IMG/VR virus record: IMGVR_UViG_3300045999_003468
Span: 1 to 27,795 of that record
Strand: one strand, 5' to 3'
Length of the DNA: 27,795 nt
Source: a virus
The notes under the pieces: generated by a model
Database searches by the model: none
Seen by the model: only the letters and a program-made list of their open reading frames with translations
What the model was told of the DNA's origin: nothing
Shown: positions 1 through 13,907 of the stretch, piece after piece
Layout: each line of letters opens with the position of its first letter
Numbering within the stretch: the first letter of the stretch is position 1
Program-made: the position numbers and the translations under genes

Positions 1-1783
1 GGCTTCTGTCCCCCATCGCAGATTGCACCAAAGGTCCAAGATTGAGATAGATCGAGTCAGTATCTGATGCAATGACATAATCAACACTTTCTGTTTTAAG
101 AATATTATTCATGTACTGGTTAATCTTATTTTCGATCCAACGAATCGACAATTGCCCGGCAGTGGTAACACCGAGAGCCATTCTCAAATCATAGAAACGG
201 AAATACTGTGAACCGAGAGCACCATAAGCGGAGTTCAGTGAAACCTTCTTTGCAAGTTGTAGGTTATTGTAACGTGCAATTCGTTTTTCAATGTCATACT
301 TCTTCGAATCGTCGGTCTCATTTTCATACTCTTGCTTGGCCTGCAACATCATCTTTTTGAATTTGCTGCGGTCAACATACATTTCTTCCATCATCTTAGG
401 CAAGAAACCTTGAATATCTGTTCGGAAGTATTGCCCGTTAGGTGTGATTGTGACGCCAGATAAACTTGATGTGTCAATTTGGCATTTCAAAAGTTTGTCA
501 ACAGAAACACCTTGCGATAGAACATCACGCATTTCTTGCGTATAATCTGCCGGTTCGATTAGAGTTTCCGGCGAAATGTTATACTGCATCATCAGGTGAG
601 GATACAGACTGTTTAAGTCGAAACTGGCAACCCAGTTGTGTAGACCAACTTGTGGTTCTTTCACGTATGCACCTTCGAATGCGGAATCTTTATCCTGCAC
701 TTCACGTGGTGGTACAATAATCTTCTGTTGCAACAGATAAGAATATGTCAGTGAATCCCACATGCGTGTCTGTGCAAACACATCTTCATAGTTACACTTG
801 GTATCATATGCAAGAGTCAGTGCCAGTTCCAACAGTTTCAGTTTATCTTCTAGTTTAAGAATCAGTTTAACGTCTTTGATGTTATACTCAATAAACTTTT
901 GGAAGTTCAATCGATACAACTGATGCAGGTTTTCATATTCATCGTATGAGATTTTACCTTCACCAAGTTCAACGTTTGCAATATTATCTAGTCGATAAGA
1001 TTCTTGTGACTTACCACCCGGCGCATACCATTTGTAGAGTTCGATGTAGTCGAGAGATTCGACACCAACAAAACTATATGCAATCAACATTCTGCCATTA
1101 ATGTTTGTCTTGCGTTCAGAAATATAATTCCAAGGAGAAAGTTTCTTTGCATCGTCTTCTCCGAGAATTTTGCGAAAACGATTGACAAGATATGGAATAT
1201 CAAAGAACTTTGTGTTCCAACCAGTGATAACATCAGGACAATTATCCGACCACAACATCAGGAACTTCTTGCAGAGAGTCCATTCATCTTTACACTTAAC
1301 ATAAACTTCATCACCTTGGACTTCATAGTCACCACATCCGAACACATAGGTTTTGCCGTTGATATAAGTGATTGCAATCGCGGTGATAGGTTCATTGGCT
1401 AGATAAGGATCTGGGAATCCGTTTTCTGAACCAACCTCAATATCTACGATGGCGATAGAAACTTTATCCTGATCCCACTCAACCATCGTGGGATGTTGAT
1501 CTGCAATGAATGCATATTCATATCTGGTGTTGCCATAGATTTTGGGTGCACCAGGAATGCCATCATACTTCTTAAAGAATTCTCGCGCTTCGTAGATACT
1601 GTCGAAACGTTTTTCAGACAAGTCCAGACCATCAAGTGATTTGTGGGTGCCCTTATCTTTCTTGGCAGGAAGATATAGTGATGGTTCGTAGTCAACCTTT
1701 TGTTTGATACGTTTTCCGTCCATGATCCCGCGATACAGGATCTTGCCACCTAGGGCTTGAACATTGGTGTAGAAATTAGACAT
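1..1783 (-). CDS. 43: DNA polymerase (T4 gp43-like, family B), C-terminus beyond window
   Basis: Replicative family B DNA polymerase with proofreading exonuclease. About 594 codons are visible, starting at an ATG that overlaps the upstream gene's stop (TAATG). The exonuclease motif I is VDIEVG with D114 and E116, matching T4 D112/E114. Exo II (TGWNTKFFDIPY) and Exo III (YNIKDV) follow. The polymerase palm has motif A FDLNSLYPH, motif B KVSLNSAYGALG and motif C ASDTDSIY. The window ends just after motif C, so the thumb and the clamp-binding C-terminal tail are not seen. No intein or intron interrupts the visible part. In T4, regA lies directly upstream of 43; here a small Sm-like gene takes that place and regA is about 13 kb away. 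Transcription probably starts at the promoter at 2135-2163. The assignment is secure. Confidence 0.97.
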   Translation of the reverse strand, partial: MSNFYTNVQALGGKILYRGIMDGKRIKQKVDYEPSLYLPAKKDKGTHKSLDGLDLSEKRFDSIYEAREFFKKYDGIPGAPKIYGNTRYEYAFIADQHPTMVEWDQDKVSIAIVDIEVGSENGFPDPYLANEPITAIAITYINGKTYVFGCGDYEVQGDEVYVKCKDEWTLCKKFLMLWSDNCPDVITGWNTKFFDIPYLVNRFRKILGEDDAKKLSPWNYISERKTNINGRMLIAYSFVGVESLDYIELYKWYAPGGKSQESYRLDNIANVELGEGKISYDEYENLHQLYRLNFQKFIEYNIKDVKLILKLEDKLKLLELALTLAYDTKCNYEDVFAQTRMWDSLTYSYLLQQKIIVPPREVQDKDSAFEGAYVKEPQVGLHNWVASFDLNSLYPHLMMQYNISPETLIEPADYTQEMRDVLSQGVSVDKLLKCQIDTSSLSGVTITPNGQYFRTDIQGFLPKMMEEMYVDRSKFKKMMLQAKQEYENETDDSKKYDIEKRIARYNNLQLAKKVSLNSAYGALGSQYFRFYDLRMALGVTTAGQLSIRWIENKINQYMNNILKTESVDYVIASDTDSIYLNLGPLVQSAMGDRS

Positions 1784-2094
1784 TAACCGGTAATGATGCT
1801 TTGTTGTTTGGGTAGAATGATGCCGGTGCCAAATAATTGATTATAATTATTGACAAAATCTTCGGCAGGAACATAGGAGTATACTACATGTTGCTTGTTA
1901 ATGGCAACCTGCATTCCAGTTTTTTGTTCTGCATGGAGTGGAAAAGGTGCGAATCCAACATTTGGTGCACCATCTTTACCTCTTACCACCGCAACACCAA
2001 CAGGATTTGTCAGTAATACGGTGGTATCGGTTTCTTCACTCACTTCAGCTAAGACTTCTTCGTGAGTTACAAGTTTAAATAACATAATTTTCAT
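1783..2094 (-). CDS. Sm-like (LSm/Hfq-fold-like) small protein upstream of DNA polymerase
   Basis: Predicted 103 aa protein, start MKIMLFKL. The ATG at 2094 is chosen because AAAGGA lies about 7 nt upstream; the frame stays open further 5' without a ribosome site. The N-terminal half has alternating hydrophobic strands with the pattern EEVLAEVSEETDTTVLLTNP. The C-terminal half contains VVYSYVPAEDFVNNYNQLFG. The gene at 25849-26211 has the same layout (GTDVICVMEE..ITNPM, then VFEPTDEFTEYYLN), so I read the two as paralogs. The overall look is that of the Sm-like beta-barrel proteins found beside replication genes in T4-like aquatic phages. The family call rests on pattern only. Its stop overlaps the polymerase start, so the two genes are probably translationally coupled. 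Confidence 0.7.
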   Translation of the reverse strand: MKIMLFKLVTHEEVLAEVSEETDTTVLLTNPVGVAVVRGKDGAPNVGFAPFPLHAEQKTGMQVAINKQHVVYSYVPAEDFVNNYNQLFGTGIILPKQQSIITG

Positions 2095-2114
2095 AGAACA
2101 TCCTTTCGTGATTA

Positions 2115-2122
2115 TATAAATA
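2115..2122 (+). promoter_or_regulatory. T4-type late promoter (TATAAATA) for the exported-protein cassette
   Basis: Exact T4 late promoter core TATAAATA, upstream of four co-directional plus-strand genes (first ATG at 2186). Such promoters are read by host RNA polymerase carrying gp55, and a gp55 gene is present at 25236-25775. The predicted start, about 6 nt downstream, falls near the -10 box of the opposing early promoter. Confidence 0.75.
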
Positions 2123-2134
2123 CTTATGAAGTTC

Positions 2135-2163
2135 ATTATAACACAAACTTCAATCACTGTCAA
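2135..2163 (-). promoter_or_regulatory. Sigma-70 promoter for the Sm-like gene and DNA polymerase
   Basis: TTGACA (2158-2163), 17-bp spacer, TATAAT (2135-2140), read on the minus strand. The predicted start is near 2128, about 34 nt before the ATG at 2094. It is a full consensus match and overlaps the oppositely directed late promoter at 2115-2122. Confidence 0.8.
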
Positions 2164-2185
2164 TACACTCAAAAAAGAGGCAAAA

Positions 2186-2656
2186 ATGATCAAAAAGCTT
2201 ACCGCAATGCTTTTTGTCATGGTTACATTTCCAGCAATGGCAGATCCCATTGTGACTGATTCGACTAGTAGAAGCACCACACAAACAATTACCGAAAGTA
2301 CAACAACCGTAAAATCTCCGCCGCCAACAGCCGTGGCTCCTGCCGTCACAGTCATCAACTCTGATGTTTGTGCAGTTGCTGTATCCGGTGCAACTCAAAC
2401 TCAAATTCTTGGCATTTCTTTTGGTGCAACAATGACCGATAAGAATTGTGAGAGATTAAAGTTAGCTCGTTCAACATATGACATGGGTATGAAAGTTGCA
2501 GCAGTTGCTATTATGTGTCAAGATGAAAGAGTATTTACAGCAATGATGAATGCTGGAACTCCTTGCCCAATAGACGGTAAAATTGGTGAACAAGCCAGAG
2601 CACTTTGGGAAGCAAATCCACATCGTATTCCACAAAAAATTAAGAGTAGAGACTAA
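2186..2656 (+). CDS. Exported protein with conserved Cys/ARxxYxxG-type domain
   Basis: 156 aa protein with a clear Sec signal peptide (MIKKLTAMLFVMVTFPAMA, likely cut before DP). A Thr/Ser/Pro-rich linker covers residues about 20-55. The C-terminal domain follows, with Cys residues in NSDVCAV, DKNCERLKLAR, IMCQDER and GTPCP. The layout of Cys, then ERxxxAR, then AA..IMCQ resembles a small periplasmic domain seen in other phage and proteobacterial proteins, whose function I do not know. The ATG at 2186 is chosen because AGAGG lies 5 nt upstream and the signal peptide begins there; the open frame before it has neither. First gene behind the late promoter; its last base overlaps the ATG of the next gene (TAATG). 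Confidence 0.8.
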   Translation: MIKKLTAMLFVMVTFPAMADPIVTDSTSRSTTQTITESTTTVKSPPPTAVAPAVTVINSDVCAVAVSGATQTQILGISFGATMTDKNCERLKLARSTYDMGMKVAAVAIMCQDERVFTAMMNAGTPCPIDGKIGEQARALWEANPHRIPQKIKSRD

Positions 2657-4371
2657 TGAAACTCTGGAGTTTATTAGTTGCATGTGTACTGAATATTTCG
2701 GTAGCACAAGCACAAATAGTTACGATTCCAATTCCTGGAAGCCCACTGTCTTTGAATTACATGGCTAATCCACAGCCATTGCAGAACATAAACAATAATC
2801 CAGCGGCAACAAGTTATCAATTATGGGATGATGGTTACGCAAATGTTCCTTTAGGTTTTAATTTTCCGTTCTTCGATAAAACATTTAACAACTCAACAAT
2901 GTATAGTAATGGTACAGTGCAGTTTGGACCACCCGTAAATGGATTTCCTTCAAACAATACTTTCTGCTGCAATGGTATTACAATTGATAGAAATACATCA
3001 TCAGCATACAATTACAGTATTTTAATGATGCAGACTGACATGTATGGTGCTTCAGGTAATAATCACTATTCACTTGGTAATTCAAATAGTATGACATATG
3101 GTTGGTATAATGTTGAAAGACTTGGTGATCCTTCAAACAAAACAAGTTTCGAATTAAAAATTGATAGCACGGGTAATATAGACATGCGTTGGACGGGTGC
3201 AATGATATCATGGAATACACCAGCAATTGGTGTTATTGGTGATGCATCCAAAGGTGAATTTGCAGTCATACAACAAGGCAGTTTGAACCAGAACTTTACT
3301 ATTCCTGGTTTGACACAAGTAACTACAGGTCAAACACCTGATATTGTTATTGATCCTTGTACAAGCAACCCATTATACTCACCAACTTGTGCGGGTTATC
3401 AAGCAGCATACACCGAACAACAATGTTCAATTAATCCTTTATACTCCACAACTTGTTCTGGTTATGCGTCAGCATATCACAATCAACAATGTTCAATTAA
3501 TCCATTATATAATGCGACATGCCCCGGATATGCTGCAGCATATCATACTCAACAATGTTCTATTAATCCACTATATTCTACAACTTGTTCCGGATACGCA
3601 GAAGCGTATTTTACACAACAATGCAATTTGAATGGATTATATGATAAAACTTGCCCAAACTATGCGACAGCATATGCAACCAAGATGTTACTTGAACAAC
3701 AAGGCATGGCATCAACTGTTGCAACAGCAGGAGAAATTGCGAAAAGTGATCCTTTAACAACATCGACAACAACCGCATCACCATCAGTCAGTTCAGATGG
3801 TTCAGTTTCGGTTGGTGTATCAAAGACTGGTGACGCAAACGTTGATAAAGCAATTTCTTCACCGCCACCAACAACAAACTCTGCTGCAGCACCTGCAGCA
3901 CCTGTTCAATTGGTATCTCCTGGACCTGCGGCTGCTGGACCAGGTCCAGCTTCACCTGGTCCCGCACCTGCAGCCAAAAATGAAGGTGGAGAAAAACCGG
4001 CTGGTGGTGCAACTCAGCAAGCGCGAGGTGGTGATTCTAAACCTGCAGCAAGCCCTCGACAAGAACTACAAGCAAGAAGAGAAGCTGCAGCGAAAGCCGA
4101 AGCAGTAGAAAGAGGTAAAAATCTTGCTAATGAAATGGGTAAAGCAAGTGATCTAGAATCACAAAAACAAATTCAAAATGCAGTAATTCAAGCAATGGGA
4201 TTCACACCCGGTTTTGATAATTATAGTAAAGCAACGTTGACTGATGCTCCTGGTTATAGACCATATTCAATTTATGGTGGTCAAAGAGTTATTGAAAATC
4301 GTAATACAGCCAGAATGTTTGGTGGTACAGATAGATTACACCAAGAAATGGTCAATCAACAATACAAATAA
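2656..4371 (+). CDS. Large exported repeat protein (nidogen-like N-terminus, five 22-aa Cys repeats)
   Basis: 571 aa secreted protein. Residues 1-19 are a signal peptide (ending VAQA). Residues about 20-225 form a beta-rich domain (LWDDGYANVPLGFNFPFF, NGTVQFGP, WYNVERLG) that resembles nidogen-like or extracellular beta-sandwich domains. Residues 235-344 are exactly five tandem 22-aa repeats of the form QCSINPLYSTTCSGYxxAYxxQ, each with two Cys. A Thr/Ser stretch, a Pro-Ala-Gly-rich spacer (about 405-450) and a charged Ala/Gln/Glu-rich helical region follow. The C-terminus is Tyr/Arg-rich. It is probably late-expressed with its neighbours. It could act in the periplasm or outer envelope during lysis, or on the host surface; the sequence does not decide between these. 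I do not recognise a named family. Confidence 0.8.
   Translation: MKLWSLLVACVLNISVAQAQIVTIPIPGSPLSLNYMANPQPLQNINNNPAATSYQLWDDGYANVPLGFNFPFFDKTFNNSTMYSNGTVQFGPPVNGFPSNNTFCCNGITIDRNTSSAYNYSILMMQTDMYGASGNNHYSLGNSNSMTYGWYNVERLGDPSNKTSFELKIDSTGNIDMRWTGAMISWNTPAIGVIGDASKGEFAVIQQGSLNQNFTIPGLTQVTTGQTPDIVIDPCTSNPLYSPTCAGYQAAYTEQQCSINPLYSTTCSGYASAYHNQQCSINPLYNATCPGYAAAYHTQQCSINPLYSTTCSGYAEAYFTQQCNLNGLYDKTCPNYATAYATKMLLEQQGMASTVATAGEIAKSDPLTTSTTTASPSVSSDGSVSVGVSKTGDANVDKAISSPPPTTNSAAAPAAPVQLVSPGPAAAGPGPASPGPAPAAKNEGGEKPAGGATQQARGGDSKPAASPRQELQARREAAAKAEAVERGKNLANEMGKASDLESQKQIQNAVIQAMGFTPGFDNYSKATLTDAPGYRPYSIYGGQRVIENRNTARMFGGTDRLHQEMVNQQYK
3358..3687 (+). repeat. Five in-frame 66-bp tandem repeats (22 aa each)
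   Basis: Repeat units start at 3358, 3424, 3490, 3556 and 3622, each beginning at a Cys codon. The DNA has diverged more than the protein: NPLY, TC and GY..AY are kept while codons vary. That suggests an old repeat kept by selection on the protein. Confidence 0.9.
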
Positions 4372-4380
4372 GGAAACAAA

Positions 4381-4998
4381 ATGTCAGAAGAAATCAAAGA
4401 TGTTAATAAAAAAATTGATGAAGCGGAAGCCGCTGTTAAAAAATATGCAAGTAAAGATACAGTTATATCAATTGGTGGATACGAATTTACTCCAGCAAAA
4501 TTAATGGTCGCATTCACACTGGCATCTTCATTACTAGGCGGTCTTTATGGTACGTTTGAAGTATACAAAGACTACATGAGTATGAAGAAGAAAATTGCTG
4601 AATATGTTACACCAGACTTAACCGAACTCTATAAAAAGATGGAAGTGTTGGATGCAAATACCAGCAAGATGACAGAATATACAAACAGCATTAAGAACGA
4701 TTTAAAGAATGATGTTCGTAGAGTGGAAGGTGTTGTTGAAAATCTAGAAAGATCCAGTAAAGCATCCACCAGAGATACAGATCAAACTGTCAAGGATGTA
4801 AAAAAGGAAGTGGATGCCACACTTAAAGAAGTTAGAAGATATAGTGATCAAACTGTTAAAGAAATCAATCAAGAAATAGTTCGCATCAATCAAGAAGTGG
4901 CTAAAGGTCAAAGAGATACACAGACAGAGATCAGAACATTGAGAAGAGAAGTTGACGATAAGATCAAAAAGGCTCTAGACAATCCTCTTTCCAATTGA
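4381..4998 (+). CDS. Membrane-anchored coiled-coil protein
   Basis: 205 aa protein with no signal peptide. Residues about 1-30 are charged and helical. One hydrophobic segment (about 40-60, PAKLMVAFTLASSLLGGLYG) would span the inner membrane. Residues about 65-200 form a long charged heptad-like coiled coil (QTVKDVKKEVDATLKEV, QTVKEINQEIVRINQEV). A single membrane segment with a long coiled coil recalls spanin- or holin-associated and tape-like scaffolding proteins, but no family is recognised. A good ribosome site (AAGGAAAC) precedes the ATG. It lies 9 nt after the repeat protein and before the D,D-peptidase, so it may tether or time these envelope proteins. Confidence 0.75.
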   Translation: MSEEIKDVNKKIDEAEAAVKKYASKDTVISIGGYEFTPAKLMVAFTLASSLLGGLYGTFEVYKDYMSMKKKIAEYVTPDLTELYKKMEVLDANTSKMTEYTNSIKNDLKNDVRRVEGVVENLERSSKASTRDTDQTVKDVKKEVDATLKEVRRYSDQTVKEINQEIVRINQEVAKGQRDTQTEIRTLRREVDDKIKKALDNPLSN

Positions 4999-5032
4999 TA
5001 TCTATATACTATTATTACTTTGAAAATTTAAT

Positions 5033-5737
5033 ATGTTTAAAATTATTTTATTATTCTTTTTCCTTGTCGGCAACGTTAACGCGATTGAATTGACTGCACA
5101 GAGTTGGTTAGTTGCCGACGAAAAGGGAAAAATTATTCAGGGTGAAAATACCAAAGCAATTCGTTCTATAGCCAGTATAACGAAACTAGTTTCTGCTATG
5201 GTTGTTCTGGACGCAAAACAAAACTTAGATGAAAAGATAAATCAATTCACCAGAAGAGAATTGTTACAACTTTCAATTGTTAAATCGGACAACAATGCAG
5301 CTAGATTACTTTGCGAAAAATATCCTGGTGGTTTGCCTGCATGTATTGCAGCAATGAATAAGAAGGTTCATCTTCAAGGTTTCATGTATACAAGATTCAC
5401 TGACCCTACAGGTTTAGATGCCGGTAATGTTAGTAACGCTGAAGAACTGGTTGATCTTGTGTTATTATCTAAAGATTATCCAGAATTAATAGAATATAGT
5501 AAAATGTCGGAAGTGAAAATTAAGATACGCAAGAACTGGATGGTATTCAACAATACAAATCCAATTATTGGAAAGAGACACGATTTTATTATTAGTAAAA
5601 CCGGTTATATCAAGGCATCTGGTGGTTGCATCGTAATGATGTTAGACACCGATATCGGTAGAAGAATTGTTGTGGTTCTTGGCAGTAAGAACACCAAGAC
5701 TAGAATTCCTGAAGCAGAATTTATTTCTCAGATGTAA
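5033..5737 (+). CDS. Exported D,D-peptidase of the penicillin-binding protein S11 family
   Basis: 234 aa protein with a signal peptide (MFKIILLFFFLVGNVNA). The three active-site motifs of peptidase S11 (D-alanyl-D-alanine carboxypeptidase/endopeptidase) are all present: S48-I-T-K51, S85-D-N87 and K189-T-G191. The family block FTDPTGLDAGNVSNAEEL lies between them. It would act on peptidoglycan peptides in the periplasm. It lacks the C-terminal beta domain and membrane anchor of PBP5-type enzymes, so in length it is closer to PBP7-like endopeptidases. Its place at the end of a late cassette suggests a role in lysis or wall remodelling; that role is inference. The ribosome site is weak (an A-rich leader only). 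The TAA stop directly abuts the 3' end of the convergent tRNA at 5738. Confidence 0.88.
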   Translation: MFKIILLFFFLVGNVNAIELTAQSWLVADEKGKIIQGENTKAIRSIASITKLVSAMVVLDAKQNLDEKINQFTRRELLQLSIVKSDNNAARLLCEKYPGGLPACIAAMNKKVHLQGFMYTRFTDPTGLDAGNVSNAEELVDLVLLSKDYPELIEYSKMSEVKIKIRKNWMVFNNTNPIIGKRHDFIISKTGYIKASGGCIVMMLDTDIGRRIVVVLGSKNTKTRIPEAEFISQM

Positions 5738-5810
5738 TGGTTGCGGGTCACGGAGTTGCACCGGAACTGAGGATTATGAGCCCACTGTGATACTGTTTCA
5801 CCAACCCGCC
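5738..5810 (-). tRNA. tRNA-Met(CAT), initiator-like and divergent
   Basis: 73 nt including CCA. The anticodon loop CTCATAA is flanked by GGG on its 5' side, as in initiator tRNAs. The 3' end reads GCA-A-CCA, leaving A72 unpaired against G1, which is also an initiator trait. The D-loop lacks the usual GG and the T-loop is TGCAACT (G55 in place of T), with one weak pair each in the anticodon and T stems. It may be a diverged initiator or a decaying gene. Confidence 0.65.
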
Positions 5811-5813
5811 AGA

Positions 5814-6005
5814 TTATTTATTAGGCAAATTAATTTTTGTGCGTTCTTTCATTATTTCTTCTATTATCTTGAACGCTTCGTCTTCAGCTAAAGCATCTTC
5901 AATCTCTTTTGGTGTTTTTCTAAAAATTCTATCATAGTTATCAGCATATTCTTTTTGTGATACACTGAATGGTCTTGGAGCAGAACCTTTACCACCATCG
6001 GACAT
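5814..6005 (-). CDS. Small conserved phage protein (MSDGGKGS N-terminus)
   Basis: 63 aa hydrophilic protein beginning MSDGGKGSAPRPFSV, a start I associate with small conserved proteins of aquatic T4-like phages. The rest is charged and helical (KEIEDALAEDEAFKIIEEIMKE). It has no signal peptide or membrane segment. The ribosome site GGAGAA lies inside the last codons of the GroES gene, so the two are likely co-translated. Function unknown. Confidence 0.75.
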   Translation of the reverse strand: MSDGGKGSAPRPFSVSQKEYADNYDRIFRKTPKEIEDALAEDEAFKIIEEIMKERTKINLPNK

Positions 6006-6006
6006 T

Positions 6007-6252
6007 TTATTCTCCGTAAATTAAAACGATACTTGTTGAAGGCACAACATATTTATTATCGATTGGCATGGCTGCATTCCAATCGAGCAGTACAACATCA
6101 CCAACAGATACACCATCAGCATCTGGACCTACTGCTAAAATTTTAGCTTTATCTGGTTCCTGAGAAGATGACAGGATAATTCCTGAACTAGTGGTGTTGA
6201 TATTCTCTAAACGTTCTACTAAAACTTTATTTTTCAGTGGCAAAATATTCAT
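6007..6252 (-). CDS. GroES-like co-chaperonin
   Basis: 81 aa protein of the Cpn10/GroES family; it would cap the host GroEL chamber. It shows the N-terminal strand ILPLKNKVLVERLE, a mobile loop with the GroEL-binding pattern TTSSGIILS (residues about 18-30), then AKILAVGPD and VGDVVLLD. It is slightly shorter than bacterial GroES (about 95 aa). T4's functional counterpart gp31 is far more divergent. The ATG at 6252 is preferred over the GTG at 6261 because the ribosome site AAAGGTGA overlaps that GTG. The 18-nt initiation region is identical to that of the YkuK-like gene at 8564. It lies downstream of three tRNAs. Confidence 0.88.
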   Translation of the reverse strand: MNILPLKNKVLVERLENINTTSSGIILSSSQEPDKAKILAVGPDADGVSVGDVVLLDWNAAMPIDNKYVVPSTSIVLIYGE

Positions 6253-6342
6253 ATCAATCACCTTTAAATGGAGCGGTGTACTGATTCACACAGCTAACAT
6301 GAAGGGGTACTCCATGTCGTATTATTACACACCGCATAAAAC

Positions 6343-6416
6343 TGGAGCGGGATAGGAGAATCGAACTCCTGGCATTAGCTTGGAAGGCTAAGGTATTACC
6401 ATTATACGAATCCCGC
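6343..6416 (-). tRNA. tRNA-Gly(TCC)
   Basis: Seven-pair acceptor GCGGGAT/ATCCCGC, anticodon loop CTTCCAA, T-loop TTCGATT, encoded CCA at 6343-6345. All arms fold normally. Confidence 0.95.
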
Positions 6417-6424
6417 AACTAACT

Positions 6425-6498
6425 TGGTGCCCCATGAGAGAATCGAACTCCCGTACCCGGATTACAAAACCGGTGTAATACCATTATACTAATAGGGC
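6425..6498 (-). tRNA. tRNA-Thr(TGT)
   Basis: Acceptor GCCCTAT/ATGGGGC, anticodon loop TTTGTAA giving TGT, T-loop TTCGATT, encoded CCA. The innermost anticodon-stem pair is T-T. Confidence 0.93.
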
Positions 6499-6505
6499 AA
6501 AATCT

Positions 6506-6580
6506 TGGAGCGGGTAGTGAGAATCGAACTCACAACTAAACCTTGGCAAGGTCTTGTGTTACCACTAGCACCATACCCGC
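6506..6580 (-). tRNA. tRNA-Gly(GCC)
   Basis: Acceptor starts GCGGGTA, anticodon loop TTGCCAA, T-loop TTCGATT, encoded CCA. First tRNA after the promoter at 6603-6631. Confidence 0.95.
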
Positions 6581-6602
6581 ATCAATTTAAATTTATAGAG
6601 TT

Positions 6603-6631
6603 ATTATATAGGCCTTTTTTTTAATTGTCAA
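6603..6631 (-). promoter_or_regulatory. Sigma-70 promoter for the Gly/Thr/Gly tRNAs and GroES
   Basis: TTGACA (6626-6631), 17-bp spacer, TATAAT (6603-6608) on the minus strand: full consensus, about 15 nt before tRNA-Gly(GCC). The spacer contains an A8 run. Confidence 0.8.
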
Positions 6632-6637
6632 GCACTT

Positions 6638-7255
6638 TTACATCATCGGTTTGTTTCCATTTCGAAAACCAATTTCACCACCTTCTTCTTTTATTTTCTT
6701 CATAACATCTTCAAAAAGAATAGGTCTAAAATCAGTTTGTTCAACACAAACACAATGATAACGTGAATCAATCATAGGTTCTTCCACAGTGAAAGGTCTT
6801 GGATCATACTTACTCACCATTTCACTTTTCACTGTACGAAGCACACGATTGGCATGTAAGTGACCATGAATGTTAACACCAAAACGACCGAGACTTTCTT
6901 CATGTACCGGAATATGAGACAGAATCATTCCGTTCATCACATGATAACCACGAATGTCTCTAAAATGTTTTGTATAATCTTCAAGTTTAAAAATGTCATG
7001 ATTGCCACGAATCAACACTTTATCACCATTTAACCTGTACATAATGTCAAGTGACTTGCGATTGATAACAACATCACCAAGATGATACACTTTATCATTT
7101 GGTCGAACTGTTTCGTTCCAACGTTTCACCATTTCTTCATCCATCTCTTCAGGATTATCCCATGGTCGAAGTTTAGTCACACCATCAGCGCGCATAAACC
7201 TACACACTCCAGCATGGCCAAAATGTGTATCACTCACTAAGAAAACTGATGGCAT
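6638..7255 (-). CDS. Calcineurin-like metallophosphoesterase
   Basis: 205 aa protein with every metal-binding motif of the family in order: SDTHFGH (residues 8-14), HLGDVV, RGNHD, a histidine in SHIPVHEE, and HGHLH. These ligate two metals for phosphomono- or diester hydrolysis; the substrate cannot be told from sequence. The ribosome site AAGGAG is 5-6 nt before the ATG. It lies between tRNA groups, in the same direction, and has no sequence relation to gp47 (23759-24832) beyond the shared fold. Confidence 0.88.
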   Translation of the reverse strand: MPSVFLVSDTHFGHAGVCRFMRADGVTKLRPWDNPEEMDEEMVKRWNETVRPNDKVYHLGDVVINRKSLDIMYRLNGDKVLIRGNHDIFKLEDYTKHFRDIRGYHVMNGMILSHIPVHEESLGRFGVNIHGHLHANRVLRTVKSEMVSKYDPRPFTVEEPMIDSRYHCVCVEQTDFRPILFEDVMKKIKEEGGEIGFRNGNKPMM

Positions 7256-7270
7256 TTTAACTCCTTATCT

Positions 7271-7345
7271 TGGCCCGGCGTAAGAGAATCGAACTCCTAT
7301 TAAGGGCTTAGAAGACCCCTGTATTATCCATTATACGAACGCCAG
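7271..7345 (-). tRNA. tRNA-Arg(TCT)
   Basis: Acceptor CTGGCGT/ACGCCGG, anticodon loop CTTCTAA, T-loop TTCGATT, encoded CCA with G73. Reads AGA/AGG. Confidence 0.93.
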
Positions 7346-7351
7346 AAATTT

Positions 7352-7428
7352 TGGTGCCCCAGAGGAGAGTCGAACTCCTAAAATTTGGCTTCTAAGACCA
7401 ACACGTATACCAATTCCGTCACCGGGGC
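7352..7428 (-). tRNA. tRNA-Leu(TAG) with short variable loop
   Basis: Acceptor GCCCCGG/CTGGGGC, A73, anticodon loop CTTAGAA, a D arm typical of leucine tRNAs (GGAATTGGTATACG). The variable region between the anticodon and T stems is only 5 nt (ATTTT), whereas bacterial tRNA-Leu normally has a long arm. Encoded CCA. Confidence 0.88.
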
Positions 7429-7429
7429 A

Positions 7430-7457
7430 TATATACTTTTATGAATGAACCTGTAAA
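7430..7457 (-). promoter_or_regulatory. Possible sigma-70 promoter before tRNA-Leu(TAG)
   Basis: TTTACA (7452-7457), 16-bp spacer, TATATA (7430-7435) on the minus strand. It is not full consensus, and it directly abuts the tRNA 5' end. The 130-nt spacer behind it (7439-7571) has no other feature I can name beyond small inverted repeats. Confidence 0.4.
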
Positions 7458-7571
7458 AATTTCAGCTAATGTGCATCACTGCATTTATCTTACAACAAGT
7501 AGATATTTTACACCACATCCAATAATTAATCAAGCGAAAGCTGAATTCAAACCGTTGGTTATTCCCAACAT

Positions 7572-7645
7572 TGGTGCTCCCAACAAGAATTGAACTTGTG
7601 TTTCACCCTTACCAAGGGTGTGTAATACCATTATACTATGAGAGC
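7572..7645 (-). tRNA. tRNA-Thr(GGT)
   Basis: Acceptor GCTCTCA/TGGGAGC, five-pair anticodon stem CACCC/GGGTG with loop TTGGTAA, T-loop TTCAATT, encoded CCA. Confidence 0.95.
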
Positions 7646-7646
7646 T

Positions 7647-7722
7647 TGGTGCTGCCTGTTGGAATCGAACCAACTTCAACGGCTCTTCAGACCGCCGCTA
7701 TGACCACATCAGCTAAAGCAGC
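7647..7722 (-). tRNA. tRNA-Phe(GAA)
   Basis: Acceptor GCTGCTT/AGGCAGC, anticodon loop CTGAAGA, T-loop TTCGATT, encoded CCA. One nt separates it from tRNA-Thr(GGT). Confidence 0.95.
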
Positions 7723-7725
7723 AAT

Positions 7726-7800
7726 TGGTACCTGGTGACAGTTTCGAACTGCCGACCCTCTCGGTGTAAACGAGACGCTCTACCCCTGAGCTAACCAGGC
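7726..7800 (-). tRNA. tRNA-Val(TAC)
   Basis: Acceptor GCCTGGT/ACCAGGT (G1-T72 wobble), anticodon stem TCTCG/CGAGA with loop TTTACAC, T-loop TTCGAAA, encoded CCA. Confidence 0.95.
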
Positions 7801-7808
7801 ATAAATCT

Positions 7809-7884
7809 TGGGGAGTTATATGAGGATCGAACTCATACTACCTCGGTCACAGCAAGGTGTGCAGTCCACTACACTAATAACTCC
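7809..7884 (-). tRNA. tRNA-His(GTG)
   Basis: Anticodon loop CTGTGAC. The gene encodes the extra G at position -1 paired with C73, the histidine identity element, ahead of the seven-pair acceptor GAGTTAT/ATAACTC. Encoded CCA. Confidence 0.95.
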
Positions 7885-8069
7885 ATAGGTGATTGGCTAC
7901 GTTCCCATTTTCGCCCCAATCTGAGTCGTTACCCTGTCCGTTGTTATTTGCTTCTAGGTTAGTACACTTCTACCCGACTGTGTTTTTCAAGGCACCCATG
8001 TTGGCGGGTCTTGCGGCAATGAACAGTCTCGCCGTGCTCTTATGGTGTGGCAATCACCCACTTTCAACG
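7885..8069 (-). other. 185-nt non-coding spacer, G+C-richer than its surroundings
   Basis: Lies between the stop of the YkuK-like gene and tRNA-His. No convincing ORF, tRNA, promoter or terminator was found. It contains short complementary stretches and may be a structured 3' UTR or RNA; nothing firm can be assigned. Confidence 0.4.
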
Positions 8070-8564
8070 TTAAAGTGTAACCGGGGTCTGTACTTGTTCC
8101 GTAAGAATCCGTTTTAGCCGGTCTGCACAGAACGAAGCAGCTGGTGCATCTGGTTTTACCATAGGCGTCATGTTACATGTGCCTTTGATATAACCAATTG
8201 CTTGCTGAACAACACAAGAAGAACCATATTCATCATCTTTGTTTAAATCCAAATGAACTTCAACGTGACGGTCTTCCAACACATCAGCCAAACTTTGGAA
8301 CAATTCAGACACTTTATAAACTTCAGTCATCAGACGCATTGCTGGTTTACTTTTCTTATGGTCATAATCCAATTCTCTCTGAACATAACCAAAGATTTTA
8401 CAACCGTGACGGCCATCGATATGAACTACAACTGCAAGAGCATAATCTGCATACCAAACACCATTAACACGAACACGTTCTGAGTCAGCACCCAGATAAA
8501 CTTTCGTATCGGGTCCTTGATTCAAGATAAATTCTTTTACTTCTTGCAAATTGAAATTTTTCAT
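8070..8564 (-). CDS. YkuK/DUF458-like RNase H-fold protein
   Basis: 164 aa protein matching the YkuK (DUF458) family of predicted RNase H-like nucleases. It shows VYLGADSERV (first acidic strand), YALAVVVHIDG, a helix with LMTEVYKVSEL, then VEVHLDLNKDDEYGSS, IGYIKGT and KPDAPAASFCADR. The acidic residues at the ends of the strands fit a metal-dependent nuclease site, but activity is not proven for the family. The ATG at 8564 is preferred to the GTG at 8573 because AAAGGTGA overlaps that GTG. Its 18-nt initiation region is identical to that of the GroES gene. It lies alone between tRNA-Trp and tRNA-His. A role in tRNA or RNA handling is only a guess from context. Confidence 0.8.
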   Translation of the reverse strand: MKNFNLQEVKEFILNQGPDTKVYLGADSERVRVNGVWYADYALAVVVHIDGRHGCKIFGYVQRELDYDHKKSKPAMRLMTEVYKVSELFQSLADVLEDRHVEVHLDLNKDDEYGSSCVVQQAIGYIKGTCNMTPMVKPDAPAASFCADRLKRILTEQVQTPVTL

Positions 8565-8590
8565 ATCAATCACCTTTCTTATTTTACTTA

Positions 8591-8664
8591 TGGCATCCCG
8601 CCAGGGATTCGAACCCCGACCAACAGTTTTGGAGACTGGTATGCTGCCGTTACACTAGCGAGAT
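8591..8664 (-). tRNA. tRNA-Trp(CCA)
   Basis: Acceptor ATCTCGC/GCGGGAT, G73, anticodon loop CTCCAAA, T-loop TTCGAAT, encoded CCA. Confidence 0.95.
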
Positions 8665-8667
8665 ATT

Positions 8668-8742
8668 TGGTACCCTTGGACAGTTTCGAAATGTCGACCT
8701 ACGCCTTATCAAGACGGTGCTCTTCCTCTGAGCTACAAGGGT
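8668..8742 (-). tRNA. tRNA-Ile(GAT)
   Basis: Acceptor ACCCTTG/CAAGGGT, anticodon loop TTGATAA, T-loop TTCGAAA, encoded CCA. Confidence 0.94.
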
Positions 8743-8746
8743 AAAG

Positions 8747-8824
8747 TGGACCGCCCGGAGAGATTCGAACTCCCGACTTCTTAGTTCGTAGCCAAGCACT
8801 CTAAGTCCACTGAGTTACGGGCGG
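8747..8824 (-). tRNA. tRNA-Arg(ACG)
   Basis: Acceptor CCGCCCG/CGGGCGG, anticodon loop CTACGAA, T-loop TTCGAAT, encoded CCA. A34 would need host TadA editing to inosine to read CGU, CGC and CGA. Confidence 0.94.
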
Positions 8825-8827
8825 TTA

Positions 8828-8902
8828 TGGTGGTACTAATTGGTAACGATCCAATCTCCTCGGCTTATGAAACCGGTACGCATCCGTCTACGTCATAGTA
8901 CC
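8828..8902 (-). tRNA. tRNA-Met(CAT)
   Basis: Acceptor GGTACTA/TAGTACC, A73, anticodon loop TTCATAA, T-loop ATCGTTA, encoded CCA. Probably elongator methionine; the CAT anticodon alone cannot exclude isoleucine. Confidence 0.88.
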
Positions 8903-8908
8903 ATTAAT

Positions 8909-8983
8909 TGGTGGACCGCAAGAGAATCGAACTCTTACCTCCGCCGTGCAAAGGCGGCGTGCTCCCATTATCACTAGCAGCCC
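8909..8983 (-). tRNA. tRNA-Ala(TGC)
   Basis: Acceptor GGGCTGC/GCGGTCC (contains the G3-T70 alanine identity pair), anticodon stem CCGCC/GGCGG with loop TTTGCAC, encoded CCA. Confidence 0.95.
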
Positions 8984-8990
8984 AAAAAAG

Positions 8991-9028
8991 TTGACTTATT
9001 ATTTTTCTTATTATACGCCATAAGTCAA
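8991..9028. repeat. 9-bp inverted repeat around a TATAAT
   Basis: TTGACTTAT at 8991-8999 and ATAAGTCAA at 9020-9028 form a perfect 9-bp inverted repeat. The 20-nt loop includes TATAAT on the minus strand, with no good -35 at normal spacing. Lies between tRNA-Pro and tRNA-Ala; could be an RNA hairpin or an operator-like site. Confidence 0.5.
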
Positions 9029-9037
9029 GGCGAGTAT

Positions 9038-9111
9038 TGGTCTCGGTGGCAAGAATCGAACTTGCGCCACATGGTCCCAAACCACGGATGATACCATTTC
9101 ACCACACCGAG
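9038..9111 (-). tRNA. tRNA-Pro(TGG)
   Basis: Acceptor CTCGGTG/CACCGAG (C1-G72, as in proline tRNAs), anticodon loop TTTGGGA, T-loop TTCGATT, encoded CCA. Confidence 0.94.
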
Positions 9112-9117
9112 ATTATT

Positions 9118-9193
9118 TGGCTCCCCTTCGTGGATTCGAACCACGCTTCACGGATTAACAGTCCGCCGCCTACACCTAGCTTGCTCAAGGGGA
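9118..9193 (-). tRNA. tRNA-Asn(GTT)
   Basis: Acceptor TCCCCTT/AAGGGGA, G73, anticodon loop CTGTTAA, T-loop TTCGAAT, encoded CCA. Confidence 0.95.
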
Positions 9194-9429
9194 ATTGAAT
9201 TCTGTATTATATATCACATAAAATGCTCTGCGTCCCTCGGCGGTAATTGTAGTACATCAGGATTTAGTTGGTTGTCTCTCATATCCATCACGCATACCTT
9301 CCACCCGCTCCCCGACAGGGACCGTTCTCGCACTGCCAGCGGCCTTTCGGTTTAAAGACTACCACCCGTGGTTATCAAGCCACTTCTCATCGTCTGGGTC
9401 AGACTATCTGTTGATTAGACAGAACGTTC
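9194..9429 (-). other. 236-nt spacer between tRNA-Asp and tRNA-Asn, partly G+C-rich
   Basis: Follows the tRNA-Asp CCA; the first bases form the palindrome CAGAACGTTCTG with it. The middle is unusually G+C-rich and contains GTGG/CCAC and ACCG/CGGT complementary blocks. A 24-codon ORF (9214-9288) lies at the downstream end. No promoter or terminator is evident. It may be a stable RNA, like the two extra RNAs of the T4 tRNA cluster, but this is inference. Confidence 0.4.
9214..9288 (-). CDS. Possible 24-aa peptide
   Basis: ORF encoding MDMRDNQLNPDVLQLPPRD and five further residues, with GGAAGGT about 8 nt before the ATG. The composition looks protein-like, but the length allows chance, and it lies inside a structured spacer. 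Confidence 0.25.
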   Translation of the reverse strand: MDMRDNQLNPDVLQLPPRDAEHFM

Positions 9430-9504
9430 TGGCGGTCCCAAGGGGTAACGATCCCCTTCTTTATGCGTGACAGGCATACGTGCGTCCATGAACACTTTGA
9501 GACC
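9430..9504 (-). tRNA. tRNA-Asp(GTC)
   Basis: Acceptor GGTCTCA/TGGGACC, G73, anticodon stem TATGC/GCATA with loop CTGTCAC, T-loop ATCGTTA (similar to tRNA-Met at 8828), encoded CCA. Confidence 0.92.
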
Positions 9505-9509
9505 AAATC

Positions 9510-9713
9510 TTAAGCACGAATATCTATATTCGTTCCTTTATTATCTTGTGAAACTTCTTTTCCTTTTTCACTATACAGTTGTGCAAATTCTTGACCATGA
9601 ACTGTTACAACTATTACATCATTACCTTTATCATATTTAAAAATTTCTCTTACTATTGTTTTTCTAATATCACCCACCCAAGTGGTGTAATTTGATATTT
9701 CTGAAATTAACAT
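9510..9713 (-). CDS. Hypothetical protein, 67 aa
   Basis: Soluble 67 aa protein; ATG at 9713 with TAGGAGAG 6 nt upstream. It contains a predicted beta pair (DVIVVTVHGQEFAQLY) and a polar C-terminus (SQDNKGTNIDIRA). No family is recognised. It lies between tRNA-Tyr and tRNA-Asp, in the same direction, so it is probably expressed from the tRNA transcript. Confidence 0.65.
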   Translation of the reverse strand: MLISEISNYTTWVGDIRKTIVREIFKYDKGNDVIVVTVHGQEFAQLYSEKGKEVSQDNKGTNIDIRA

Positions 9714-9731
9714 AGTACTCTCCTATTAAAT

Positions 9732-9824
9732 TGGTGGAGGTCCACGGAGTCGAACCGCGAATGTTTACCACGGGGGACCGGATTTACAGTCCGGTGCAGC
9801 ACACGCCATAGCTGCAAGACCTCC
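9732..9824 (-). tRNA. tRNA-Tyr(GTA)
   Basis: 93 nt with a long variable arm, anticodon stem ending CCGGA/TCCGG with loop CTGTAAA, acceptor GGAGGTC/GACCTCC, A73, encoded CCA. Confidence 0.95.
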
Positions 9825-9839
9825 AAAAACTAACTACGG

Positions 9840-9896
9840 GACGCCTGGGAGTTCTACAGGTCGTTTAAGAATACGCCTCGCGGCGATTCTCCCAAA
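9840..9896 (-). ncRNA. Structured inter-tRNA spacer (nested hairpin)
   Basis: Spacer between tRNA-Lys and tRNA-Tyr. The minus strand has TGGGAG pairing with CTCCCA around a strong inner hairpin, GAAT-c-GCC-gcga-GGC-gt-ATTC. No T-tract follows, so it is not a normal terminator. Confidence 0.4.
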
Positions 9897-9900
9897 ATAT

Positions 9901-9975
9901 TGGTACGGGTGGAGAATTTTGAAATCTCGACTCTCTGGTTAAAAGCCAGATACTCTGCCTCTGAGTTACACCCGC
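9901..9975 (-). tRNA. tRNA-Lys(TTT)
   Basis: Acceptor GCGGGTG/CACCCGT (G1-T72), anticodon stem TCTGG/CCAGA with loop CTTTTAA, T-loop TTCAAAA, encoded CCA. Confidence 0.95.
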
Positions 9976-9979
9976 ATAC

Positions 9980-10131
9980 TACCATTTGTTTAGTGTTATC
10001 GTGCAAATTTAGGAGTGAGGTGCTTCCTCTCCAAAGCCGATGCAGTTATATCAGGACCCGTTCCCGGCCGGTTGGGCCCGAATAGTGTATGCGTCCATAC
10101 ACGATACCTTGATAACACTAAACAAATGGTA
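9980..10131 (-). ncRNA. 152-nt spacer element closed by a perfect 21-bp inverted repeat
   Basis: Arms 9980-10000 and 10111-10131 are exact complements (21 bp), enclosing 110 nt. The interior is G+C-rich and has a hairpin GTGTATG-gacg-CATACAC and GGCCGG/GGGCCC blocks. The right arm contains the ACCA end of tRNA-Glu (10127-10130), and the left arm ends 4 nt from tRNA-Lys. In the transcript the spacer would therefore fold as a long rod starting on the tRNA-Glu 3' end. No transposase or ORF is present. Confidence 0.7.
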
Positions 10132-10202
10132 CACCATAGGGGAATCGAACCCCTCTTTACGCCGTGAAAGGGCGTTGTCCTAAACCGATAGACGAATGGT
10201 GC
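10127..10202 (-). tRNA. tRNA-Glu(TTC)
   Basis: Acceptor GCACCAT/ATGGTGT, anticodon stem ACGCC/GGCGT with loop CTTTCAC, T-loop TTCGATT, encoded CCA that also belongs to the 21-bp inverted repeat. Confidence 0.95.
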
Positions 10203-10204
10203 AT

Positions 10205-10291
10205 TGGTGCGAGTGGCCGGAATCGAACCGGCACGCCGATTAAAGCGAGAGATTTTAAGTCTCTTGTGTCTACCTATTTCACCACACTCGC
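10205..10291 (-). tRNA. tRNA-Leu(TAA)
   Basis: 87 nt, normal long variable arm (GCTTTAATCGGCG), anticodon stem AGAGA/TCTCT with loop CTTAAAA, A73, encoded CCA. First tRNA after the promoter and boxA at 10293-10344. Confidence 0.96.
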
Positions 10292-10292
10292 G

Positions 10293-10310
10293 TAAATTTT
10301 TAAAGAACAA
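10293..10310 (-). promoter_or_regulatory. rrn-type boxA-like element, copy 1
   Basis: Minus-strand TTGTTCTTTAAAAATTTA, close to the ribosomal boxA TGCTCTTTAACAATTTA. It lies at the predicted RNA start of the 10317 promoter and is identical over 18 nt to copy 2 at 10920-10937. Confidence 0.55.
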
Positions 10311-10316
10311 GTGTGT

Positions 10317-10344
10317 ATTATACATAAACTGGCAACTTTGTCAA
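10317..10344 (-). promoter_or_regulatory. Sigma-70 promoter for tRNA-Leu(TAA) and downstream tRNAs
   Basis: TTGACA (10339-10344), 16-bp spacer, TATAAT (10317-10322) on the minus strand. The -35 lies between short complementary arms ACTGG/CCAGT. The predicted start is near 10310. Confidence 0.75.
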
Positions 10345-10371
10345 CCAGTGTTGCACAAATACAACACAACT

Positions 10372-10447
10372 TGGAGTGGGTGACAGGAATCGAACCTGCA
10401 TAAAACGGATTTGCAATCCGTTCCCTAGCCTTTCGGGTCACACCCAC
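10372..10447 (-). tRNA. tRNA-Cys(GCA)
   Basis: Acceptor starts GTGGGTG, anticodon stem ACGGA/TCCGT with loop TTGCAAA, T-loop TTCGATT, encoded CCA with T73 (cysteine identity). Confidence 0.95.
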
Positions 10448-10453
10448 ATAAAT

Positions 10454-10544
10454 TGGTACCTCTGGCGAGAATCGAACTCACATCAGCCGCTTATCTGGCG
10501 CTACGGGGTATAAATCCGCTGTTTTACCATTAAACTACAGAGGC
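10454..10544 (-). tRNA. Atypical tRNA with long variable arm, anticodon probably TAT (Ile)
   Basis: 91 nt. Acceptor GCCTCTG/CAGAGGT, D arm GTTT-AATGGTA-AAAC, T arm GTGAG-TTCGATT-CTCGC and encoded CCA are all normal. From the D arm, positions 27-31 are GCGGA and the loop is TTTATAC, giving anticodon TAT. The 31-39 pair is an A-C mismatch. The variable region is about 21 nt, a class II feature of Leu, Ser or Tyr tRNAs, not Ile. The amino acid identity is therefore uncertain. Confidence 0.7.
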
Positions 10545-10553
10545 AACAAAACT

Positions 10554-10643
10554 TGGCGGAGACTGTGGGAGTCGAACCCACTGACCGTTATTAAGCGGTC
10601 TACGGATTAGCAATCCGCTGCATTACCATCCTGCCCAATCTCC
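10554..10643 (-). tRNA. tRNA-Ser(GCT)
   Basis: 90 nt, long variable arm (GACCGCTTAATAACGGTC hairpin), anticodon stem GCGGA/TCCGT with loop TTGCTAA, G73, encoded CCA. Confidence 0.96.
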
Positions 10644-10647
10644 TAAC

Positions 10648-10739
10648 TGGTGGAAGCGGTGAGATTCGAACTCACGGACCTATTTCTAGATCGACAGTTT
10701 TCAAGACTGTTGCAATAAACCGGGCTCTGCCACGCTTCC
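10648..10739 (-). tRNA. tRNA-Ser(TGA)
   Basis: 92 nt, long variable arm (GATCTAGAAATAGGTC), anticodon stem ACAGT/ACTGT with loop CTTGAAA, T-loop TTCGAAT, encoded CCA. Confidence 0.96.
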
Positions 10740-10746
10740 ATTAAAA

Positions 10747-10831
10747 CCATATAGAAACACACTCATCACGCACCGTATAGTGGGCGATCAACTCCACTAC
10801 CTTATAGGCATCAAAATGCATTTCTATATGG
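10747..10831 (-). ncRNA. 85-nt spacer element closed by an 11-bp helix on the tRNA-Gln CCA
   Basis: Minus-strand CCATATAGAAA (from 10831) pairs perfectly with TTTCTATATGG (to 10747). Inside are GCAT-tttg-ATGC and TAGTGG/CCACTA hairpins. The first CCA is the 3' end of tRNA-Gln, and tRNA-Ser(TGA) starts 8 nt after the element. The architecture is the same as at 9980-10131. Confidence 0.6.
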
Positions 10832-10906
10832 CAGCCCTTCAAGGATTCGAACCTCGGAATGCCGGAATCAAAATCCGGTGCCTTAGACCAACTTGGCGAA
10901 AGGGCT
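10829..10906 (-). tRNA. tRNA-Gln(TTG)
   Basis: Acceptor AGCCCTT/AAGGGCT, anticodon stem CCGGA/TCCGG with loop TTTTGAT, G73, T-loop TTCGAAT, encoded CCA. Confidence 0.95.
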
Positions 10907-10919
10907 AAAAATAACTCTA

Positions 10920-10937
10920 TAAATTTTTAAAGAACAA
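10920..10937 (-). promoter_or_regulatory. rrn-type boxA-like element, copy 2
   Basis: The same 18 nt as copy 1 (minus-strand TTGTTCTTTAAAAATTTA), again at the predicted RNA start, 13 nt before tRNA-Gln. The copies suggest processive antitermination of tRNA transcripts through host Nus factors. Confidence 0.55.
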
Positions 10938-10942
10938 AGTGT

Positions 10943-10971
10943 ATTGTATGACAGATTCAATGACCTGTCAA
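10943..10971 (-). promoter_or_regulatory. Sigma-70 promoter for tRNA-Gln and the Ser/Ile/Cys tRNAs
   Basis: TTGACA (10966-10971), 17-bp spacer, TACAAT (10943-10948) on the minus strand; predicted start near 10936. Confidence 0.75.
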
Positions 10972-11001
10972 CTAGTGTGTTGTTTTATCGCAACACCAAA
11001 C

Positions 11002-11030
11002 AAAAAACCCAGACTTTTTAGGGTCTGGGT
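11002..11030 (-). terminator. Intrinsic terminator of the 11195 RNA
   Basis: Minus-strand stem ACCCAGAC/GTCTGGGT with an 8-nt loop, followed by five T. The 5' arm overlaps a competing 11-bp pairing. Confidence 0.85.
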
Positions 11031-11195
11031 CTTGTGTTTGAAGTCGGTTTTAATACGTTGGTACTATACTCCTACACAAGACCCGGTTGGCCATGAGCCA
11101 TCGCAATTAGATGTTGTTCTAATTGTGCGATACTCTGGCTGCGAACTAAAGGGTTTATGTATGAGAGACACGATTCTTCCTAAAAATTTAACAAT
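11002..11195 (-). ncRNA. Probable stand-alone structured RNA, about 190 nt
   Basis: Bounded by a consensus promoter (11202-11230) and an intrinsic terminator (11002-11030), with no ORF of note. A long hairpin is built on CAATTAGA (11104-11111) and TCTAATTG (11118-11125), extended by ATCG/CGAT with a 2-nt bulge. An 11-bp inverted repeat (11074-11084 with 11027-11037) overlaps the terminator 5' arm by 4 nt, so the two folds exclude each other, as in attenuators. It could be a trans-acting small RNA or a regulated leader for the tRNA operon. I do not recognise a known RNA class. Confidence 0.65.
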
Positions 11196-11201
11196 GTTTG
11201 T

Positions 11202-11230
11202 ATTATATAGGCGTTTTGTTTGTTTGTCAA
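11202..11230 (-). promoter_or_regulatory. Sigma-70 promoter for the 190-nt RNA
   Basis: TTGACA (11225-11230), 17-bp spacer, TATAAT (11202-11207) on the minus strand: full consensus. It starts 15 nt after the stop of the acetyltransferase gene. Confidence 0.82.
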
Positions 11231-11244
11231 GCGGTTTTTAAAAA

Positions 11245-12257: not shown

Positions 12258-12305
12258 CAAAGAATCTCCATTTTTGAGACACTATTACCCACATATATTT
12301 ATCAA

Positions 12306-13228: not shown

Positions 13229-13231
13229 AAA

Positions 13232-13363
13232 TTACTCCATCAAAACATAATCTTGTTTACTAACACCACACTCTGGGCAATTAACTTCATCAGGAAGACT
13301 TAACCAATCCGCTTCTGATAGGGTATGACCACAAACTACACAAACATATACACGTTCTGACAT
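13232..13363 (-). CDS. Small rubredoxin-like iron protein
   Basis: 43 aa with the two rubredoxin knuckles, C8-V-V-C11-G and C29-P-E-C32-G, and the intervening LPDEVNCPECGVSKQDY. These four Cys would bind one iron. It is shorter than free rubredoxin (about 53 aa) and matches the length of the C-terminal domain of rubrerythrin. Its ATG overlaps the stop of the rubrerythrin-like gene by one base (TAATG), so the two look like a split rubrerythrin. It likely passes electrons to the diiron partner. Confidence 0.85.
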   Translation of the reverse strand: MSERVYVCVVCGHTLSEADWLSLPDEVNCPECGVSKQDYVLME

Positions 13364-13812: not shown

Positions 13813-13831
13813 GTTTTCCCTTTTTTTAAAA

Positions 13832-13907
<76 letters not shown>

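Follow-up and report, generated by a model that had tools for sequence, protein, structure and literature searches.

Cell wall enzymes of phages are usually seen either as lysins, released when infection ends, or as tail enzymes, released when it begins. Products named D-alanyl-D-alanine carboxypeptidase have been reported from the 76-kb long-tailed Limnohabitans phage DC31 (ORF110) and from S-SCSM1 (ORF214). The same product name is carried by ORF7 of phage DSL-LC01, which was considered as a precedent for the S11 gene described here and rejected, because it is annotated as VanY, a metallopeptidase of family M15 and not S11 (PMC10611076). Among bacterial S11 enzymes, E. coli PBP7 is counted with the endopeptidases that cleave peptidoglycan cross-links (PMC9166362). 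The S11/DacC entries of uncultured Caudovirales phages (BFVD A0A6J7WTF8 and A0A6J5TBF9) and PHROG 5304 share a phage-encoded S11 fold with the protein studied here, although the latter is only 21 to 30% identical to them, and no characterized member was found among these three. A phage S11 enzyme as such is therefore not new. What is new is a compact variant with a pair of cysteines, its breadth in T4-like phages, its presence or absence between near-twins, and a sporadic counterpart in the SAR11 order. In the open-access literature, we found no publication in which such a phage is described as encoding an S11 enzyme.

The stretch of DNA that we analyzed (27,795 bp, hereafter the window) is a whole IMG/VR record and, because that record is classed as "linear," a genome fragment. 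Judged by its genes, the window phage is T4-like and known from metagenomes only. The minus strand encodes a sliding clamp (gp45) and a UvsW-type helicase, together with clamp-loader-like and gp46/47-like genes that were assigned by eye, and 26 tRNA genes at 6343-13907 (minus strand) with small ORFs in between. The closest isolated phages for the UvsW-type helicase were Pelagibacter phage Mosig and Methylophilales phage Melnitz (57.5%). From the SAR11/LD12 relatives we infer a freshwater habitat for the phage group, and any statement on the host range of the window phage would be of the same kind.

The gene at 5033-5737 (plus strand) begins with ATG and encodes a protein of 234 amino acids that matched the Pfam family Peptidase_S11 (PF00768; E = 7.6e-34, 117.7 bits against a cut-off of 27.6) and PHROG 5304, annotated as "peptidase" (E = 6e-20). 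Its best sequence matches in the PDB were PBP7-type DD-endopeptidases (6muq, E = 8e-31; 6azi, E = 5e-30), and these were also nearest in a profile search against the PDB (E = 6e-46). The three S11 motifs occur in the family order: SxxK as S48-I-T-K51 (5174-5185), which holds the nucleophile and the general base, SxN as S85-D-N87 (5285-5293), and KTG as K189-T-G191 (5597-5605), all on the plus strand. Read by eye, the N-terminus, MFKIILLFFFLVGNVNA followed by IE, is a typical Sec signal peptide comprising residues 1-17 (5033-5083, plus strand), with predicted cleavage between VNA and IE, and relatives have a hydrophobic N-terminus of similar length throughout. The Pfam assignment and the motifs SITK, SDN and KTG thus bear out an earlier note on this DNA, which had described an S11 peptidase with a complete active site, and its reading of a signal peptide agrees with the N-termini of the window protein and its relatives. 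On these features, the S11 protein is very probably an exported, active DD-peptidase, and from fold and motifs it would be expected to bind penicillin.

The predicted fold is that of a penicillin-binding DD-peptidase. An AlphaFold2 model computed from a 60-row alignment of phage relatives (A1) reached a pLDDT of 92.4 and a pTM of 0.90; 6azi and 6muq were its top Foldseek matches. The fold of the protein matches that of PBP7/PbpG of E. cloacae (6azi) and Yersinia (6muq) along the whole model, with Z = 31.9 and 30.8 and an rmsd of 1.8 to 1.9 A (VIA-align against 6azi aligned all 217 residues with an rmsd of 1.8 A and Z = 31.9). The protein also shares with PBP7/PbpG the three motifs and the sequence around SITKL, S-x-N, YPGG, PTGL, NTN and KTG. 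It is 36% identical to PBP7/PbpG in the structure alignment, has about 214 to 217 mature residues, and lacks 20 residues between SxxK and SxN in comparison with 29 bacterial PBP7s sampled across the phylum. This shortened segment (5186-5284, plus strand) gives a spacing of 32 residues instead of the 50 to 52 of ordinary PBP7s and also appears as a gap in the HMM alignment. Cys94 and Cys104 (C-x9-C; 5312-5344, plus strand) are peculiar to the compact family, being found in 63/63 phage rows and 0/29 bacterial PBP7s, and may form a disulfide. The phage proteins further differ from PBP7/PbpG in conserved GGCIVMMLDT and RIPEA segments. The 20-residue deletion could alter substrate choice. Four divergent phages encode an even shorter S11 form with all motifs kept, and in two distant phages the SxxK-SxN segment is of intermediate length, again with the motifs retained.

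The best NCBIfam model for the S11 protein was the D-alanyl-D-alanine endopeptidase PRK11669 (NF008668), with 148.5 bits; this is below the equivalog cut-off of 294 bits for PBP7/PbpG, and we therefore call the protein a PBP7-type S11 variant and not PBP7. Carboxypeptidase models gave at most 40.8 bits (DacA/C/D, 28 to 39 bits against cut-offs of 610 to 765), and the class A beta-lactamase model bla_class_A gave 18.4 bits against a cut-off of 200. The C-terminal beta domain and amphipathic membrane anchor of the PBP5/6 type are absent from the protein, the model ending at the last helix of the catalytic domain. In the structure ranking, non-PBP7 S11 enzymes followed within a few Z units of the PBP7-type ones, so that the substrate cannot be told from the fold alone. 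The S11 protein is among the smallest S11 enzymes compared here, with the segment from SxxK to SxN stripped, and could therefore serve as a natural experiment on the parts of PBP7 that cross-link cleavage requires.

A scan of IMG/VR found relatives of the S11 protein on at least 114 contigs; its search patterns were drawn from the window protein, one of the six containing Cys104, which tilts the sample to close relatives. Of the 114 stretches, 80 loci were kept. All three motifs are retained in 63/63 distinct rows (the window protein and 62 other phage proteins), and S31, K34, S68, N70 and K172-T-G174 (mature numbering) are invariant in A1. Purifying selection was strong in S11 lineages that are 50 to 60% identical, with dN/dS ratios of 0.05 to 0.14 (Nei-Gojobori, eight pairs). 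Given the number of relatives, the intact motifs and these ratios, the presence of the gene is not due to chance. The earlier note called such an enzyme unusual in a phage. Among named phage records this is borne out: 23 S11 matches were found, each below 33% identity and at least some of them bacterial DNA (the top "Acinetobacter phage" matches resemble the pbpG region of a bacterial chromosome). Among environmental contigs, by contrast, the family is common.

The compact S11 gene was also chromosomal in 3/147 sampled SAR11-order genomes, and its owners include SCGC AAA280-B11, AAA028-D10, Ca. Fonsibacter sp. and Pelagibacterales MAGs. That the single-cell matches were phage contigs in infected cells was considered and rejected, as the neighboring genes are chromosomal. 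The SAR11-order proteins resemble the phage ones in sequence (49 to 58% identity in the confirmed match), in the 32-residue spacing and in the Cys pair (7/7 sequences); they differ in having other gene neighbors and in forming their own clade (100/98). The next best match in the class was 31% identical (289 sampled genomes), and in the phylum the next best were ordinary PBP7s at about 40% identity (398 sampled genomes). In trees, the compact family was set apart from PBP7 (100/100), and the SAR11 sequences formed one clade among those of phages, which indicates that S11 was exchanged between phage and host lineages, with no direction given. The backbone of the tree lacked resolution, and the placement of all phage sequences in a single clade, with an AU p value of 0.525, was neither supported nor rejected. 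The search confirmed no viral contig carrying a SAR11-type S11 sequence.

In the window, S11 is the last of four plus-strand genes (2186-5737) that adjoin the minus-strand replication genes. The first gene (2186-2656, plus strand; start reassigned from 2126) encodes a secreted protein of family c6 (phrog_20531), and the second (2656-4371, plus strand) a secreted protein of 571 amino acids (family c4). The third (4381-4998, plus strand; family c2) encodes a protein in which an N-terminal membrane helix and a long coiled coil were read from the sequence. In c4 proteins (the window and loci L007, L009 and L013), the N-terminal domain is swapped for unrelated sequence between relatives, while the Cys repeats (NPLYSxxCxGYxxAY) and the C-terminus stay constant, an arrangement suggestive of module swapping in a surface or secreted protein.

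The cassette is headed by ATAAATA, the T4-type late motif, at 2116-2122 (plus strand), 70 nt before the start codon of its probable first gene. This is the single copy on the plus strand of the window, and the motif precedes the first cassette gene in 17/27 loci. In a 172-kb relative, it was enriched before structural genes (14/51 versus 4/164 genes). The window as a whole showed no over-representation of ATAAATA (5 copies versus 7.2 expected), and the argument for late expression therefore rests on position and conservation. Eleven sites in the window match the sigma-70 type nearly perfectly (11 or more of 12), and ten of these face the minus strand. Among the ten is a perfect extended-minus-10 promoter (2135-2163, minus strand) that lies immediately ahead of the cassette and faces away from it, toward the DNA polymerase gene. 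Both the motif at the head of the operon and the opposite orientation of the sigma-70-type sites support the "late cassette" of the earlier note.

Across relatives, S11 was found beside c2/c4/c5/c7 envelope genes in 39/81 loci, beside a CHASE2/cyclase-like gene of 683 amino acids in 19/81, beside dnaK in 9/81 and elsewhere in 14/81, the cyclase and dnaK names being read from the sequences. The cyclase-like family (c16; L018 7904-9955 and other loci) combines, by eye, a CHASE2 sensor with an adenylate/guanylate-cyclase domain over its 683 amino acids, and in 11 loci its gene immediately precedes S11.

The part of G001 at 81.4-111.3 kb is collinear with the window; in this relative of 172,157 bp, 28 window ORFs found matches, most of them 50 to 88% identical. 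The endolysin of G001, at 60637-61302, is of the GH19 type (E = 2e-76 to a PHROG endolysin, E = 2.8e-6 to Pfam GH19) and is directly preceded by Rz-like i-spanin and o-spanin genes and directly followed by a GTA-type holin; the S11 gene of G001, at 88475-89188, lies 27 kb from these lysis genes. GH19 was present in 11/14 long S11-bearing records (the three without it span 105 to 138 kb and may be incomplete) and in 3/3 S11-lacking records of at least 95 kb. This co-occurrence rules out that S11 is kept in place of an endolysin. No match to the T4-type lysozyme (PF00959) was found in eight long relatives, and no holin or spanin was recognized among the window genes scanned or read. In G002, a baseplate-hub-like protein (79868-81772, plus strand) carries a C-terminal M15-type peptidase motif and is probably a tail wall enzyme.

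A near-twin of the window phage, G812 (156.7 kb), whose core genes are mostly 94 to 100% identical to those of the window, retains GH19 and lacks S11 throughout the record, with 79 bp between the flanking genes at its site. The block at 129,212-133,585 of G812 is 46 to 81% identical to its counterpart in the window (about 1783-6261), versus mostly 90 to 100% for the flanking genes, so that the envelope module seems to have been exchanged by recombination. GH19 in the relatives, together with the clean absence of S11 in the near-twin, indicates that S11 is dispensable and no stand-in for an endolysin. For the phage of the window, a 27.8-kb fragment, we infer from these relatives that S11 is likewise dispensable and the endolysin separate. 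The earlier note had named in advance a clear separate endolysin, together with a lack of activity on cross-linked muropeptides, as what would count against its reading. The GH19 gene was found in relatives and not in the window fragment, and with the near-twin that lacks S11, the option of a lysin finds no support; the exported PBP7-like S11 protein in a late-type cassette stands.

Taken as a whole, we lean toward a late, Sec-exported accessory DD-peptidase that would remodel the wall alongside GH19; for the accessory wall-loosening role in itself, we put the chances at close to even. The protein would be made late, in the cytoplasm, and exported to the periplasm by the Sec system of the host with no need for the holin. 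There, acylation of Ser48 would be followed by cleavage of D-Ala-mDAP cross-links (DD-endopeptidase activity), possibly with DD-carboxypeptidase activity as well, and the host peptidoglycan would be loosened or remodeled before or during GH19-driven lysis. S11 would thus be an accessory in an exchangeable cassette of envelope proteins, an optional helper and not the enzyme that bursts the cell, since relatives keep a separate lysis enzyme and the near-twin does without the gene. Of the options in the earlier note, a wall trimmer appears the best on the sequence evidence, ahead of a blocker of new wall synthesis. A Sec-exported endopeptidase of the penicillin-binding type, optional yet strongly conserved in the phages that have it, would add a third role to those of phage wall enzymes, namely wall remodeling during infection. 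A broader version, in which an exchangeable and widespread phage module uses a late, minimized PBP7 for programmed wall loosening ahead of the holin and alongside GH19, and the SAR11-order copies are derived from phages, seems to us doubtful.

Many S11 enzymes are carboxypeptidases, and the fold is common to the carboxypeptidases PBP5/6. S11 might thus act mainly on pentapeptides, removing their terminal D-Ala so that new cross-links are blocked and wall synthesis is weakened during infection. We consider this unlikely, as sequence, profile and fold are all nearest to PBP7-type endopeptidases and the C-terminal domain and membrane anchor of the PBP5 type are missing. The exported and membrane proteins of the exchangeable cassette, with their variable secreted partner, and the presence or absence of S11 between near-identical phages would also suit superinfection exclusion, in which S11 might alter the cross-links or stem peptides on which incoming phages depend; this is improbable, given a late-type promoter, which is later than exclusion would predict, and cassette genes among which no exclusion protein was recognized.

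It is very improbable that S11 serves, alone or together with a second lytic enzyme, as an endolysin exported by Sec. Such a role would account for an exported wall peptidase in a late-type cassette, and c5, a common neighbor of S11, is a DUF4337 protein similar to a DUF4337-like protein inside the lysis cassette of G003, no more than a hint of a link between S11 and lysis. Against it stand the endolysin, holin and spanins of the collinear relative, the distance of its S11 gene from them, and the near-twin that keeps GH19 without S11; moreover, no PBP7-type enzyme is known to lyse cells alone. S11 proteins bind penicillin, and the protein could in principle be a decoy or sink, binding beta-lactams or acting as a catalytically idle wall-binding protein. 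Invariant catalytic residues, strong purifying selection and a beta-lactamase score of about 18 bits against a cut-off of 200 make this scarcely credible. Accessory wall remodeling alongside GH19 remains the reading that we prefer.

Several other window genes, all on the minus strand, were noted. A rubrerythrin-like protein (13363-13812; Pfam E = 1e-19) is 79% identical to its copy in G812, versus 94 to 100% for its neighbors there. The window also encodes an Hsp20 small heat-shock protein (14255-14704), a Cpn10/GroES-like protein (6007-6261) and a small SGNH/GDSL hydrolase (12818-13228; Pfam E = 7e-9) with no obvious signal peptide. Within the replication block, a DruA-domain protein (20161-21435; Pfam Druantia DruA, E = 2.5e-21) has relatives encoded on 552 IMG/VR stretches, and its gene therefore looks core to the phage group and not part of a defense system.
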